A stretch of 62,636 bases of DNA from Kangiellaceae bacterium. GTDB taxonomy: Bacteria; Pseudomonadota; Gammaproteobacteria; Enterobacterales; Kangiellaceae. Shown piece by piece: positions 56,813 through 62,636 of this stretch (within the stretch, counting starts at the first letter, position 1; each line of letters begins with the position of its first letter). Under the pieces are notes generated by a model. That model searched no databases. It was not told the DNA's origin and was given only the letters and a program-made list of their open reading frames with translations. Position numbers and translations under genes: made by a program. The stretch covers positions 1-62,636 of the forward strand of contig JAPHTP010000132.1 of the NCBI GenBank assembly GCA_026196875.1, given 5' to 3'.

Positions 56813-59437
56813 TTAGTTCTTCTCAGGTTGTAGCCAAGGTTGGGGTTTTTCGATGTAGTATCCTTGCGCAAAATCTACCCCAATTCCTTTTAGCAATTCA
56901 AAAACCACCTCTGACTCCACATATTCCGCGACAGTTTTTATCCCCATTTGGCTGGAAATTTTTTGAATAGCCTCAATGAATGCAAAATCGATAGGGTTAT
57001 GTTCAATATCTTTCACAAATAAACCATCTATTTTCAGGAAGTCTATGGGAAGTTTTTTCAAATAGTCAAAAGATGCGAGTCCGGTACCAAAATCATCCAA
57101 AGAGAAAGTGCATCCTCTGGATTTCATGTTGTGCATAAATTCCAGGGCGTTCTCTAGATAGGAAATGGCGGAAGTTTCTGTTATTTCAAAGTTAATGTCC
57201 TGAGGATTGATCTTGTAGTGATTGAAAAGTGAATCTACAAACTCTGATATTTTTTTGTCGGTTAAAGTTATGCTGGATAAGTTTACGTTGTAAATTGTTC
57301 TTTGTTCCTCTTTTAGAGTAGATAAATGTCGGAATGTGTTATCCAGTACCCATCGATCGATTTTGGCCATTAACCCATATTTTTCGGCCACCGGAATAAA
57401 TAGTCCGGGTGGAACTATATTTCCGGAATGATCTAACATTCTTATTAATAGCTCATATTTCTTCGGCGTGCCGATGGAAGGCTGAGTTGGAATAATGGCT
57501 TGTCGATAAATCGCAAATCGATTTTCCGCGATCGCTTTTTCGAGATCGGCATGACGAGTGATTTCTTCTGCACGACGTTTAATATCCGGATCGTCGGTAA
57601 GATAATATTGGGTAACATTTGTGCCTTTGGTCTTTGCTAAACGGCAAGCATGGTCAGCAGCTGCCAGGATTTGGTTGGTGTTCTCGAATTGTGCGTCAAT
57701 AATCACTACACCTAAACAGGCGCTTGTAGTTATTACTTCCTCTTGCCAGCTAAATTCAAATGATTTAAAAGCGTTCTTTATTTGGTCACAAAGCAATTCA
57801 AGCTGAGGCTCTTCAATTCCTGATGCAATTACCGCAAATTCATCCGAACTCAATCGACTTAACTTGTGTGATTGGTCAATATTTTGTCTGAGCAAAATCG
57901 CAACTCGTTTTAAGAACTCGTCGCCAGCTTCGAATCCGTAGGATGTGTTTAATATTTGGAACTTATCTAAATCTATTAGCACAATTGCAGAGATAGACTG
58001 TTGAGAGTCTTCAATTGCTGCACTGCCTTTCACGTCACCCAGTATGCTACTGAGTTCCTTTTCTAATTGTCGACGGTTTATTAATCCTGTCAGGCTATCA
58101 CGGCTTTCATGAAAAATGAGCCGTTTACCCAGTTCTACGGCGGTAGTTAAATCTTCTAGAGTTATCGTGTAACCATCGACTTTGCCCGAAACGGAAAGGA
58201 TCGGCGCCAATTTGACCGCAACCGGGATGTTAGTCTGTTCGTCTACCATTAAAGTTAAATTGCAGCACTCGGATATTTCATTATTTTGAAAGGCTTTTAA
58301 GATGTCTGCAAAATACTTTTTCTCCCCCGCTTCGTGGTTGTATAGGTGGCAGATTTCCGAAAAAGCTTGCCCCAATATTTGCTCCATCCGCAGACCTAGC
58401 ATCGATCTCGCCCGTTCGTTGGCGAAAGTCACCTTGTGGTTTGAGTCGACCGAAAAAACTGATTCATTGACAGAGTTAACAATAGTGTTGGCTTGCTGTT
58501 GAGAGCGACGCAATTCGAGTTCTGTCTGGTGTTTAGACTGCAAGTTTTTGCGAATTAAATGGAATGCAAAATAGAGCAAAATTGTTACCACACTCCAAGT
58601 CGTAAATGATTGTTGAAGAGCAGTATTAAAAATCTCAGACTTTGTTTGGGGGTCAAGTCTTATCGCGAAACTCCAACGAGTATCGGGAATTTCGAGTGCA
58701 TATTCGAAATCAGAAAGCGCTTTCTCCGATAAATATTCTGTACTTAAAAGTCCGCTAGTTTGTTCGGTAGATACTTCGATAAAGCCTTTTTTATCATTTC
58801 TAAGTAAAAACAGCTGCTGGAATGGCAGCTGGTATTTGTGCAATATTTCACTGATAGGATTAATATTAAAAGCGACAAAAATATAGCCTTGATTAATATC
58901 CTTTGGGTCCCTAAGTTGGATTAAGTCATAGTGAGATGAAGTACTGCTTCTATGCAAAAACAAATGTTTTTGATGAGTGAGTTTAACCGTTTCTGTAACC
59001 TCTAGTTTACAGTCAGGTAGGAAGGAACCAGTGATATGCTCGAGCACGTTGATTCCTTGTGGTGAAATCACCGTAAATAGTCGGCTTTGGGTGAACTCGC
59101 TCCTGAGTTGTTTGAGTACATCCATATAGGCATCGTTTGAGACTTCTTTTGAGTGATGGTAAAAGCGGTCAAATTGATTTCGATTTTGACTCGCGAATAA
59201 TGCAATTTTTAATCTCTGAGTTGTTAACAGTTGGCTAAGTTCTTTTAATACAGACTGGCTAACCGAAGACATTAGCTCTTTTTGATAGTTATATTGAATC
59301 CGACTGATTGATACGGCCTGAATAAACAAGAGTAGGGCAAAGCACAGCGCTGCTAGCGCAAATAGGCGCCTTAAAGCTTTTATCTGGACAATATCTTTAT
59401 AATCATTGTCTTTGATGTCGGAAGACTGCTTTTGCAT
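56813..59437 (-). CDS. PAS-GGDEF-EAL protein, probable c-di-GMP phosphodiesterase
   Basis: An 874-aa membrane protein with helix 1 at about 27-47, a large periplasmic sensor (about 50-275), helix 2 at about 280-300, PAS (about 318-430), a degenerate GGDEF (SSDEF near 530, in LSRLSSDEFAVI) and an EAL domain. The EAL motif reads ELL (Glu662 in KKYELLIRM), with NFEITET, DDFGTGLAS and KTVAEYVES kept, so phosphodiesterase activity is likely while cyclase activity is not. Monocistronic; about 145 bp separate it from the flagellar-type pair. Confidence 0.9.
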   Translation of the reverse strand: MQKQSSDIKDNDYKDIVQIKALRRLFALAALCFALLLFIQAVSISRIQYNYQKELMSSVSQSVLKELSQLLTTQRLKIALFASQNRNQFDRFYHHSKEVSNDAYMDVLKQLRSEFTQSRLFTVISPQGINVLEHITGSFLPDCKLEVTETVKLTHQKHLFLHRSSTSSHYDLIQLRDPKDINQGYIFVAFNINPISEILHKYQLPFQQLFLLRNDKKGFIEVSTEQTSGLLSTEYLSEKALSDFEYALEIPDTRWSFAIRLDPQTKSEIFNTALQQSFTTWSVVTILLYFAFHLIRKNLQSKHQTELELRRSQQQANTIVNSVNESVFSVDSNHKVTFANERARSMLGLRMEQILGQAFSEICHLYNHEAGEKKYFADILKAFQNNEISECCNLTLMVDEQTNIPVAVKLAPILSVSGKVDGYTITLEDLTTAVELGKRLIFHESRDSLTGLINRRQLEKELSSILGDVKGSAAIEDSQQSISAIVLIDLDKFQILNTSYGFEAGDEFLKRVAILLRQNIDQSHKLSRLSSDEFAVIASGIEEPQLELLCDQIKNAFKSFEFSWQEEVITTSACLGVVIIDAQFENTNQILAAADHACRLAKTKGTNVTQYYLTDDPDIKRRAEEITRHADLEKAIAENRFAIYRQAIIPTQPSIGTPKKYELLIRMLDHSGNIVPPGLFIPVAEKYGLMAKIDRWVLDNTFRHLSTLKEEQRTIYNVNLSSITLTDKKISEFVDSLFNHYKINPQDINFEITETSAISYLENALEFMHNMKSRGCTFSLDDFGTGLASFDYLKKLPIDFLKIDGLFVKDIEHNPIDFAFIEAIQKISSQMGIKTVAEYVESEVVFELLKGIGVDFAQGYYIEKPQPWLQPEKN

Positions 59438-59585
59438 TCACAAATACGAGTTATTTTTATGCTAATTTAATTATAGGCACTATTTTTGAATCATCCCTAT
59501 TTTTAACTATGGGGATGTCAACCGTTGTCCAGGTATCAGACTCGATGATTGTGCTGCGATGCTTTATTAACAAGTTAGCGGTTGA

Positions 59586-59933
59586 TTACGACTTTTGACT
59601 ATCCTGATCAGAGTTGCTTCCAGGAAGGGCTATTTGTGGTGAGTCTTGACTTGCATGATGGTATTCCGGGTGTTTTCCTTGAATGAAATAAGCGAAGGCA
59701 ATTATTTTGGCTACAGCGAGATAAAGCTGTTCGGGGATTTCATCACCCAGCTCAAGTTTGCTCAAGACCTCTAGTAACACCGGGTCATTATGGATGTGTA
59801 CTTCGTTTTGTTCGGCTATCTCAATCATTTGGCGTGCAACTTCGCCATAGCCTTTAGCGACTACAGTTGGTGCATTTTGACCATCATATTTAAGTGCTGC
59901 CGCGCGAGTAATGTCGGAATTATTTTCGTTCAT
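59586..59933 (-). CDS. FlhB C-terminal-domain homologue (export-switch type)
   Basis: A 115-aa protein equal to the cytoplasmic domain of FlhB/YscU, without the membrane part. It contains AAALKYDGQNAPTVVAKGYG, ARQMIEIAEQNEVHIHNDPV and LLEVLSKLELGDEIPEQLY. The self-cleaving NPTH loop of FlhB is replaced by DGQNAP, so no autocleavage is expected. Its ATG overlaps the FliK-like stop (ATGA). Such proteins (YlqH/FhlB type) modulate flagellar export. Confidence 0.88.
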   Translation of the reverse strand: MNENNSDITRAAALKYDGQNAPTVVAKGYGEVARQMIEIAEQNEVHIHNDPVLLEVLSKLELGDEIPEQLYLAVAKIIAFAYFIQGKHPEYHHASQDSPQIALPGSNSDQDSQKS

Positions 59934-61960
59934 ATGCGGATATCTACTTTTTCTTCAGTCGCCTTCGCTAACTCTTCAGCTGCGAGTTGTTCGGGGACTA
60001 ATCCTTGCTGTCCACCTAAGCGTTCTATATCTAACCCTGCGCCCAACAGGCTATTGTGCAATTTATCCAGGTGTTGGTTGATCAAATCTGAAGTAGATTT
60101 TTGTTTGGCATAAAAATCAGTTGTGATGCGTTCGTCGTTAAGTGAAACTCTGGCAAATACGGGGCCAAGAGGTTCTAATTCGAATCGAATCGTTACCTTC
60201 CATTGGCGACAGGATTTCAAATTTCGTTTGGAATTTTTCCCGTCGAATAACATCTCAAATGAATCGATATGAGAGTTATGGTGGATTGGCAAATCTACCA
60301 AATATTGAATTAATCCCATATTAGCGGCACGTGCGGATAGTAGTTGATTGGTTTCGATACGTTGCAGCATTGCCTCGCTTGATTTGTGTAAGTTACCGAG
60401 CAACTCTTTGTAAGCTTGGATATCCAACTGTTGATTGTTATTTAGTTTAGCTTTGTTATGGGACGGTTTAAGCTGGAGCCAGTTAACATAGTGGCCTAAG
60501 AGTTCTATAGTACGCGCTGAAAAATTAAGGTTTTGGGTCAAGTTCGGTAAATTGGAAGTTAAGTTTGTCAGCTGATTTAACGGGACTATGTTGGTTTGTA
60601 CAAGTTTAGAATTGGTGTTCTGTGATTCCGAAGTTGAATGGGATAGAACAAGCGTCGAAGCGGCTAAATTCAGATTAGAATTATGAGAAGTATTAACAGA
60701 GTTTTTTGCCAAAACCTGATTAAGAGCACTCTGCAATAATGGACTCTGGGCAAGCTTTTGGATTAATGGTGTTAGTTTGTTGTTTTGCTCAATAAATTGC
60801 CCGAAGTGTTTGCTATGTTGATAAAAATCTTTAAGGATGAATTTTAAATCTAGTGGTTGAGAAGAAGTCCTGGAATTAGGCAAATTAACTTGTTTCGACT
60901 GAGCTGAATCCACGTAAGTTTGACTAACTTGATTTATCGTCGAAGTGCTTTGGGGGGGAGTTCGTTTAACCGGGGCTTGTGCTAAGTTAGACTCCATAAA
61001 ATTCCCACTTTGAAGTAAGCGGTTTTGGATAGAAACGCTCGCTTTTTTATCTGATGGGTTAGCTATTGCTTGGATTTGTTGAAACGAATTGAGTAAATTT
61101 AAGAGTGACCTTAACCCGGCCGCTAATTTATTATTAATCGGCAAATAGTTTGCCTGGACCAGTTCTTTTAGCAGAGTTACAGAGTCGTTAAGTTTAAAAT
61201 TCGAATATAAAGTATTTGGAGCCTCATTTTTAGAGAGTCCTAATATCCGCTGAGCCAATAAGTGCGTATTCTCATTTAGCTGATTAAAGTGCTTAGCAAC
61301 AGTTGAGTTAGCCGACCCTGTATCATTTTTTAGAATTGCTTTTAAGGCTTGAGAAATTAGCTGCTGTGTATGTTCATTTGGCTGGCCCGTATTTGCTTTT
61401 GTTGAGTGTGTTGACCCCTTGAGTAAAGACGTTGGTGGCGGTTGTCTTAGCTCATTTGCTCTTACCTTGTCGTTTGATAGATTGTTTTGAGTGGACGACA
61501 GAGCATTAGATGATTCGCTCCGTCCGGCTAACTCACCCTTATTTATTAGGTTTGCTAACAAAACAGTCTGCTTATCTACTGCTACAACTTTAGTGAAAGC
61601 TAGAGTTTGTATCAGTGGTTGAGACGATTGGTTTTGATTCGAAATTGGTACGGTGGTTTTAAGTTGGATAGTGTTTCCAATACGGTTGAGTACAATTTGT
61701 TGGCTACCGCTAAGTAATTTTGTTAGTTGCGACTGTGATAATTCCAACAACAGGTTTTTAGGAATATCAGCCGTTTTCGCTGTTGAATTTGAAGACTGTG
61801 GAGTTAACAGCGTGATTTGGGTTAATCGATTGGACTTCATTAAAACTGACTCAATCTGCAACGGTTTATCTAGTAATTTGCCCGCCACTTCCATATCTAG
61901 CGGAGTAGAGCGTGAGTTTAGGCTAGATAGCTTATCCGAATCGGTAATCTGTAGCTTCAC
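59930..61960 (-). CDS. flagellar hook-length control (FliK)-like protein
   Basis: A 676-aa protein, low-complexity and rich in Asn, Gln, Ser and Thr over most of its length, as in FliK rulers. The C-terminal 120 residues fold like the FliK switch domain, with WKVTIRFELEPLGPVFARVS and a tail helix LHNSLLGAGLDIERLGGQQG. It is coupled by a 4-bp overlap to the FlhB-C-domain gene, the domain FliK contacts in flagella. The start is uncertain: GTG at 61960 lies inside an 11-bp repeat, and an in-frame ATG at 61894 is possible. Confidence 0.8.
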   Translation of the reverse strand: MKLQITDSDKLSSLNSRSTPLDMEVAGKLLDKPLQIESVLMKSNRLTQITLLTPQSSNSTAKTADIPKNLLLELSQSQLTKLLSGSQQIVLNRIGNTIQLKTTVPISNQNQSSQPLIQTLAFTKVVAVDKQTVLLANLINKGELAGRSESSNALSSTQNNLSNDKVRANELRQPPPTSLLKGSTHSTKANTGQPNEHTQQLISQALKAILKNDTGSANSTVAKHFNQLNENTHLLAQRILGLSKNEAPNTLYSNFKLNDSVTLLKELVQANYLPINNKLAAGLRSLLNLLNSFQQIQAIANPSDKKASVSIQNRLLQSGNFMESNLAQAPVKRTPPQSTSTINQVSQTYVDSAQSKQVNLPNSRTSSQPLDLKFILKDFYQHSKHFGQFIEQNNKLTPLIQKLAQSPLLQSALNQVLAKNSVNTSHNSNLNLAASTLVLSHSTSESQNTNSKLVQTNIVPLNQLTNLTSNLPNLTQNLNFSARTIELLGHYVNWLQLKPSHNKAKLNNNQQLDIQAYKELLGNLHKSSEAMLQRIETNQLLSARAANMGLIQYLVDLPIHHNSHIDSFEMLFDGKNSKRNLKSCRQWKVTIRFELEPLGPVFARVSLNDERITTDFYAKQKSTSDLINQHLDKLHNSLLGAGLDIERLGGQQGLVPEQLAAEELAKATEEKVDIRI

Positions 61961-61979: not shown

Positions 61980-62449
61980 ACTGGAGAATTTATGTTGTAT
62001 GGAATGGTAAAAGGCTCAATAGCAATGTTTTAGTCGCTCCAATAGATAGTATATCGGCCAATAGCAAGACAATCTTTAGCAAAGGCAACGCTGTTAAGAC
62101 AAAAAGGACTATATTGTTCAATATTATTGAAAATACGACTATCTGATGCTTATTTGTGACGAATTGCACAAAATGCGGTTGCAAATGCAAATGAGCTAGT
62201 GCATCTTAGGCAGTGAGATTGCGCATCTGGCGATGTTAAATCTCAAAAAGCAAATAAAATCAATAATATAGTGAATCTTAATGTTGATAAATATTGGCTG
62301 TTTGAAGAAGGAATACCTGACATTCGGTTGGTAAATTTTCTCAACTTACAGGTGTAACATTTAGAAAATAGCGAACTCTAAAAGGTACCTAACTTTATCA
62401 GGTAATTAGCCCGTTTTGGGTTCATTTTTTAACTAGGAGCAAAACTCTC
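61961..62449. other. divergent intergenic region
   Basis: No gene seen in 489 bp. It carries promoters for the FliK-like gene and for the HvfA-like gene. Near the latter are GGTACCTAACTTTATCAGGTA (ends only inverted) and the ribosome site TAGGAG at 62434. Confidence 0.4.
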
Positions 62450-62636
62450 ATGAAAAAACTATCTAAGATTGTAGCACTGGTCGGGGCTTTCTTTATGGCC
62501 ACTATGTACGCGAATGTAGCTTCAGCAGAAGCTAATCCTTTCGCTAAGAATGACCAAATCCAAACCATTGCCGGTGATGGCGACGGCAAATGCGGCGAAG
62601 GCAAGTGTGGCGAAGGTAAAAAAGGCAAAAAAGGTA
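62450..62636 (+). CDS. HvfA-like Cys-repeat metallophore precursor, 3' truncated by window edge
   Basis: Exported precursor; the first 62 codons are visible. TAGGAG precedes the ATG by about 11 nt. The signal peptide MKKLSKIVALVGAFFMATMY runs on to ANVASA. The mature part begins EANPFAKND and passes into DGKCGEGKCGEGK and then GKKGKKG. EGKCG repeats in a small exported protein define the HvfA (BufA2-like) group. In characterised members the cysteines are modified by a DUF692/MNIO iron enzyme with its partner protein, giving copper-binding peptides. The expected maturation genes lie past the window end, so the assignment rests on the precursor alone. Confidence 0.82.
   Translation, partial: MKKLSKIVALVGAFFMATMYANVASAEANPFAKNDQIQTIAGDGDGKCGEGKCGEGKKGKKG

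Follow-up and report, generated by a model that had tools for sequence, protein, structure and literature searches.

The 62,636-nt window analysed here, which is the entire contig C161 of a 6.28 Mb Kangiellaceae assembly (188 contigs), ends inside the gene of an HvfA-family peptide. This peptide probably descends from a RiPP precursor and now serves, unmodified, as a periplasmic thiol buffer that would bind metals. Taken separately, it is very likely that no MNIO modifies the peptide, and a function as thiol metal buffer is the probable one. As a family member the peptide is ordinary; the locus is that of a maintained precursor outliving its enzymes. We propose that in the ancestor of Aliikangiella (g1, the window's genus) and of genus g3, whose genomes are MAGs, the genes hvfB (MNIO) and hvfC (DUF2063 partner) were deleted from a ccm-hvfA-hvfBC-mlaA arrangement. 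Such a deletion would have left hvfA beside mlaA, as seen in the relatives and as we infer for the window. The following features of the window bear on this proposal:

59586..59933, minus strand: FlhB C-terminal-like protein, a synteny marker (PF01312, E = 6e-17)

59930..61960, minus strand: FliK (flagellar hook-length control) gene, a synteny marker outside the system (PF02120, E = 9.8e-14)

62353..62382, plus strand: ECF-sigma-like putative promoter TGTAACA-N16-CTC, with a −35-like element at 62353-62359 and a −10-like element at 62376-62378 (genome pattern search)

62408..62432, plus strand: terminator-like hairpin with a T run in the 5′ leader, just upstream of the ribosome-binding site (consensus scan only)

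62435-62439, plus strand: AGGAG ribosome-binding site (from the sequence)

62450..62527, plus strand: predicted signal peptide (from the sequence and 13 aligned copies)

62450..62636, plus strand: orphan HvfA-family peptide gene, N-terminal part (open reading frame running off the contig end)

The open reading frame at 62450-62635 (plus strand) begins with ATG and continues for 62 codons without a stop up to the contig end at 62636; as the preliminary description had stated, only the start of the precursor is visible. GGAG was found 5′ of the start codon in 12 out of 12 aligned hvfA copies of g1 and g3. The peptide begins with a putative Sec-type signal peptide (...VASA/EANPF), for which we placed cleavage after VASA by eye, and HvfA-family alignments, also judged by eye, contain a signal peptide as well. 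The EGKCG repeats described earlier were borne out in part: a repeat region does begin here, and its visible portion consists of one DGKCG, one EGKCG and one EGKKG, that is, a single exact EGKCG and not several. In its visible part, the peptide matched the NCBIfam HvfA model NF050188 with 33.5 bits (E = 4.9e-8; below the cut-off of 95) and the KCGExKCG model NF050137 with 15.1 bits (below the cut-off of 19.5, the protein being truncated), and a Pfam search with the truncated peptide gave no match. Over the first 61 residues it was 77% identical to the copy of A. coralliicola (G002), a genome assigned to this species by a 100% protein match. HvfA-like genes were present in all 40 Kangiellaceae genomes examined, which include three Aliikangiella isolates (G002, A. 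coralliicola M105; G004, A. marina GYP-15; G005, Aliikangiella sp. G2MR2-5), Pleionea (G011, G013, G019) and Kangiella (G044). Together with the signal peptide and the NF050188 match, this confirmed beyond chance, at the level of sequence comparison, the exported HvfA-like precursor that had been proposed.

Membership of the HvfA / Buf_EGKCG family follows, by sequence, through the orthologues of the window peptide. Four of five scanned full-length orphans, as we call hvfA copies without adjacent hvfB and hvfC, scored above the NF050137 cut-off (91.4 bits vs 19.5 for G002), and the G015 orphan matched neither NF050137 nor NF050188. The 95 bits of NF050188 were reached by none of these five and likewise by none of the three linked HvfA (those with adjacent hvfB and hvfC) scanned alongside. 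Full orphan copies (n = 13) contain 7–12 cysteines in 103–146 residues. In AlphaFold2 models the repeats were disordered, with a mean pLDDT of 43.6 for the orphan modelled (A5, 11 rows) and of 39.0 for the linked HvfA (A6, 4 rows); for 17-residue repeats, a beta-helix is reported in the available text of Antoine et al. (PMC12452194), and these models speak neither for nor against it.

Among the 13 genomes of g1 and g3, hvfA was followed directly by mlaA, without hvfB or hvfC, in 11 out of 11 with a visible downstream side (the contigs of the window's genome, G000, and of G001 end before the next gene). The two genes lay 102–307 bp apart with no gene between them. Searching these 11 intervals for hvfBC remnants with tblastn gave a best E value of 0.008 (17 residues, G004), the other ten yielding values of at least 0.08 or no match, and at this level of sequence similarity we treat the intervals as remnant-free. 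In g2, g4, g5 and g6, hvfB and hvfC followed hvfA in 27 out of 27 genomes, 22 of which have an intact hvfA (in G007, G016, G049, G051 and G052 the contig boundary truncates it or its reading frame is broken), and mlaA came after hvfBC in 26, the contig of G007 ending first. Genes for cytochrome c maturation (ccm) preceded linked hvfA wherever the upstream side was visible. Gene labels at these loci were checked against Pfam on representatives. The ccm - hvfABC - mlaA order extends across Kangiella and Pleionea (e.g. L058). This ccm/mlaA setting of hvfABC hints at a connection with the handling of thiols or haem in the envelope. A fliK / flhB-like pair replaces the ccm genes beside hvfA in the window (56813-61960) and in G002, G003 and G005; one flank has therefore been rearranged within the genus. 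The fliK gene neighbours hvfA in L044, L047 and L049.

Up to eight neighbouring proteins per genome, from 37 of the 40 genomes (all except G049, G051 and G052), gave an unrooted tree in which a single branch (UFBoot support 100%) set g1 and g3 apart from all others, consistent with a single loss in g1 and g3 if one assumes that the root does not fall inside them. Beyond the family, a Saccharospirillaceae record (L125) carries hvfB/hvfC-like genes upstream of mlaA, with one other gene between, and in other families of the order hvfA adjoins a gene for an HvfB-like MNIO, which makes loss in g1 and g3 more economical than gain elsewhere. Record OB12 (L106) starts just before mlaA and is uninformative on hvfA. 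A. marina (G004) has an additional orphan hvfA, the second in this genome, whose locus is unrelated (L046:8217-8573).

For the window itself, the preliminary description had expected a DUF692/DUF2063 gene pair next door, and the stretch in question falls into an assembly gap. In other genomes too, G016, G049 and G052 at least, contigs end inside the hvfA repeat, which makes the repeat the most likely cause of the break. The response-regulator orthologue of the window genome (77% identical from residue 54) is cut by the end of contig C34, and therefore C34 most likely follows C161. Comparison with four relatives put the missing stretch at ∼1.8–2.3 kb, roughly 2 kb; in the relatives, its counterpart is taken up by the remainder of hvfA, by mlaA and PilZ, and by the first part of the response-regulator gene. 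An ordinary hvfABC locus with hvfB and hvfC hidden in this gap is very unlikely. The gap could hide other genes, as mlaA had no match in the window's own assembly (a search without positive control, thus weak) and the response-regulator gene is cut, but the readable g1/g3 genomes without hvfBC at this place include A. coralliicola, the best match to the window peptide. The leader of the window peptide (NPFAKNDQIQTIAG) is also of the orphan type, without GY, which argues against hvfBC in the gap. Profile searches of the window's own genome gave no match for PF05114 (MNIO/DUF692) and none for PF09836 (DUF2063). Although its own downstream sequence lies in the gap, we consider it very likely that the enzymes are absent from the locus in the window's organism. 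With neither profile matched in its genome and mlaA next in all 11 readable relatives, where no DUF692 gene stands downstream, the expected pair is very probably wrong.

Across the family, PF05114 was matched in 32 and PF09836 in 31 of the 40 genomes. The eight MNIO-free genomes all belong to g1 and g3 (8 of 13, the window's included), yet keep the peptide gene. Five of them are drafts that are 75–95% complete, a point against reading them as enzyme-free, and three are rated 100%, among the latter the named isolates G004 (A. marina, 8 contigs) and G005 (40 contigs). PF09836 found no match in nine of the 13 g1/g3 genomes. Unlinked MNIO-DUF2063 pairs are carried by G001, G002, G008 and G018, and a bufferin-type pair of this kind, encoded elsewhere, might mature the orphan peptide in trans, which the available text of Antoine et al. 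names as one possibility (PMC12452194). Against such modification stand the eight genomes that keep the peptide while being MNIO-free, and the position of every placeable MNIO outside the HvfB clade; we regard it as very unlikely. In the MNIO tree, which contained all but three of the 27 HvfB (G049, G051, G052) and left aside the G001 C232 and G006 fragments, the HvfB clade comprised 24 linked HvfB together with G029, G038 and G040 (support 0.93). The MNIO genes of G001 (C180; 225 aa, partial), G002, G008 and G018 fell outside this clade and grouped with bufferin-type enzymes.

In G002, G008 and G018, the MNIO gene has a bufferin-like, Cys-rich precursor as its neighbour at all four loci. Three of the four have DUF2282 (Pfam), and the fourth, L067, encodes a 12-Cys peptide without Pfam match; in G001, the C232 MNIO fragment adjoins a DUF2282 peptide. 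Two of these peptides were scanned against NCBIfam: L070 had a weak bufferin match (30.7 bits; cut-off 60) and L068 had none. Bufferins (DUF2282, 6 or 12 Cys) are described in the available text of PMC12452194 as exported Cys-rich copper peptides matured by MNIO-DUF2063. They form a different sequence family from orphan HvfA and, with loci in some g1/g3 genomes, still have their enzymes adjacent. One observation speaks against the loss of HvfB: in the g1 MAG G006, the end of a contig that does not carry the hvfA locus (C387, L074:4801-4968) encodes 56 HvfB-like residues. This fragment is 59% identical to Pleionea HvfB, the match stopping where an unrelated gene begins, and may be a gene remnant, a product of chimeric assembly or a genuine copy located elsewhere.

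Orphan and linked copies differed in leader and core. Linked leaders carry NPF/SPF...GY, and GY was present in 22 out of 22 linked copies vs none of 14 orphans. The EGKCG context surrounded 234 of 240 cysteines in the 22 linked copies, compared with 65 of 125 in the 14 orphans. These motif counts, like the promoter and terminator counts below, are without the five linked genomes whose hvfA is cut or out of frame and without the second, identical copy of G021. We read the E/G drift as a sign of relaxed constraint and not as proof against modification, because FonBC fully modifies DGKCG and tolerates most changes at positions 1–2; every single Ala change before the core is tolerated as well (available text of Gadgil et al. 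2026, PMC13097082).

The cysteines themselves were kept, with K before C in 125 of 125 cases and G after it in 124 of 125 (14 sequences). Three of nine hand-chosen pairs, the closest orphans, had Nei-Gojobori dN/dS values of 0.12/0.72, 0.10/0.82 and 0.09/1.32 (∼0.07–0.17), dS being >1.5 or undefined in the other six. No internal stop was present inside any orphan copy. Judging from these substitution patterns, orphan hvfA is maintained by purifying selection: the low dN/dS, KCG at 124 of 125 cysteines, the promoter in 13 of 14 copies and the terminators indicate that it is not decaying. A non-functional leftover of the lost pathway would fit the missing enzymes and the repeat structure, which varies strongly from species to species. 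It would not fit the lack of internal stops, a dN/dS well below 1 where dS is unsaturated, the retained cysteines and promoter, the strong terminators or the second copy in A. marina, and is extremely unlikely.

The promoter motif, TGTAACA-N16-NTC, was located 68–134 nt upstream of the start in 13 of 14 orphan and 22 of 22 linked hvfA copies; the copy without it is the relocated second hvfA of A. marina, which has a strong terminator. Judged by its shape, the motif looks like an ECF sigma promoter. We found it by alignment in a strict version ending in GTC, which fit seven of 14 orphans and 13 of 22 linked copies, and the higher counts resulted from relaxing this to NTC and moving linked start codons to the conserved Met. 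All 20 strict matches have a 16-nt spacer, so the fixed spacing does not depend on the relaxation alone; with [GC]TC, we counted 33 matches at 16 nt and at most two at any other spacing from 10 to 23. A sigma-70 scan of the window edge returned nothing on the plus strand. The window's genome contains two further sites, of the form TGTAACA-N16-GTCTAA. One (C38:16816-16844; L185:1501-1529) falls where an ECF sigma gene ends (its 3′ side) and a zf-HC2 (anti-sigma-like) gene is about to begin, and the other (C115:36968-36996; L188) precedes an uncharacterised long ORF. The ECF sigma factor at C38 is a candidate driver of hvfA. A looser pattern had eight matches in the genome vs three for a reversed control, so single matches are weak. 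A shared 5′-UTR fold, seen by eye as a weak YCC...GGG hairpin, found no support in RNAalifold on 10 orphan copies (0 pairs), and we do not claim it.

Directly behind orphan hvfA, we detected an intrinsic terminator that beat 50 out of 50 shuffles in 11 of 13 copies. Between linked hvfA and hvfB, a scan run without shuffles found three strong terminators, three weak ones and none in 16 of 22 copies. The G003 terminator was scored on the wrong T run (−6.6 kcal/mol, 1 of 50 shuffles as low); by eye, a GC-rich hairpin with a T run lies behind this gene. The scan of G001 covered just 50 nt.

By sequence, hvfA has stayed under purifying selection and has kept its old ECF-type promoter, and most copies are followed by a terminator; in the mechanism that we propose, the peptide would be induced by envelope or metal stress. 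It would be exported by Sec, and without HvfB its cysteines would not be turned into 5-thiooxazoles. With free or metal-bound thiols, the peptide would then act in the periplasm as a metallothionein-like, Cys/Lys-rich buffer that takes up Cu(I) or another soft metal. Bacterial metallothioneins are short, cysteine-rich and bind metals through thiols. Compared by description, the orphan peptide resembles them in shortness, cysteine content and probable thiol metal binding, and differs in being exported, in its regular KCG repeats and in its derivation from a RiPP precursor. There is a small but real chance that the cysteines are modified by some other class of enzyme encoded away from hvfA, or that they pair up in disulfides and serve a redox or structural purpose instead of handling metal. 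The conservation of cysteines, flanking Lys/Gly and signal peptide in the orphans would suit either, and an envelope redox role would fit the neighbours, namely the ccm genes (a thiol-redox pathway) and MlaA, whereas the gene-free hvfA-mlaA interval speaks against another enzyme.

We also looked for orphan-like copies outside the Kangiellaceae. In an order-wide sample of 197 genomes, 54 had a KCGExKCG domain (a search that misses some orphans, the window copy and G015 among them), and the four of these 54 without an MNIO match (G108, G178, G190, G221) all belong to family f7. Of 41 genomes with the KCG domain outside the Kangiellaceae, 24 were inspected, 20 of them linked and four not. GY was present in the leader of 18 of the 20 linked copies (absent in G222 and G070). 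In f7, it was absent from four of four inspected copies (G108 and G178 not being among them), which occupy a different locus with 11–14 kb around hvfA free of MNIO; G030 and G166 do have MNIOs, but not near hvfA. The f7 loci without nearby MNIO are L192, L196, L197 and L198. Labelled by eye, a dus-like gene lies at or near hvfA in L192, L196 and L198, and TonB-system-type genes lie near hvfA in at least L192 and L196. Among the best 120 of 4067 database homologues, loose patterns assigned a G[YF] leader to 88 and a likeness to the Kangiellaceae orphans to 15. Because sequences within a lineage are related, the GY losses count as about two independent events and not as eighteen, and the f7 copies may have lost HvfBC or merely parted from them. 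Our tentative generalization, which we hold with slightly less than even confidence, is that in two separate gammaproteobacterial lineages HvfA-family peptides stopped being RiPPs once HvfBC had been lost or had become separated from them, shed an enzyme-read GY leader motif and became unmodified, stress-induced periplasmic thiol metal buffers; the GY segment would then be the HvfBC recognition site.

The preliminary description had called the locus the most likely undescribed natural-product system of the window, a view that does not hold, as the enzyme-bearing form is the already described oxazolin/captophorin pathway. With oxazolin HvfA-HvfB-HvfC of Haemophilus influenzae (captophorins; Buf_EGKCG), the orphans share a Sec-exported precursor, KCG repeats and the match to the NCBIfam HvfA family; unlike it, they have no adjacent hvfB or hvfC in the 11 readable g1/g3 genomes. 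Relative to the linked Kangiellaceae copies, the basis of this comparison in place of the H. influenzae sequence, the orphans have no leader GY and have lost much of the E-G context. For the modified peptides, the available text of Gadgil et al. 2026 describes 5-thiooxazoles and copper binding (PMC13097082), and that of Manley et al. 2026 reports that HvfBC prefers the signal-peptide-bearing precursor and that HvfC is required (PMC13419390). In the accessible part of Antoine et al. 2025, 67 of 2583 Buf_EGKCG genomes are without MNIO, and such MNIO-less peptides are suggested to be active unmodified or no longer functional (PMC12452194). These stand-alone Buf_EGKCG precursors represent, as far as that text describes them, the same phenomenon as the g1/g3 orphans. 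Beyond what it covers, our analysis traces a whole clade to one locus, with promoter and cysteines kept, a terminator, and drift in leader and core. Our literature search, which did not extend to most subscription journals, turned up no account of a Kangiellaceae clade that has lost these enzymes.

An HvfA match alone is thus no ground for calling a natural-product cluster. The g1 and g3 genomes amount to a natural knock-out of the peptide-modifying enzyme pair in which the substrate is still under selection. This allows one to test if unmodified EGKCG/KCG peptides are functional in their own right, as raised in the available text of Antoine et al. 2025 (PMC12452194). It also makes testable which part of the precursor HvfBC recognises, a question on which the accessible parts of two reports bear through the preference for the signal peptide (PMC13419390) and the tolerance of Ala changes (PMC13097082).
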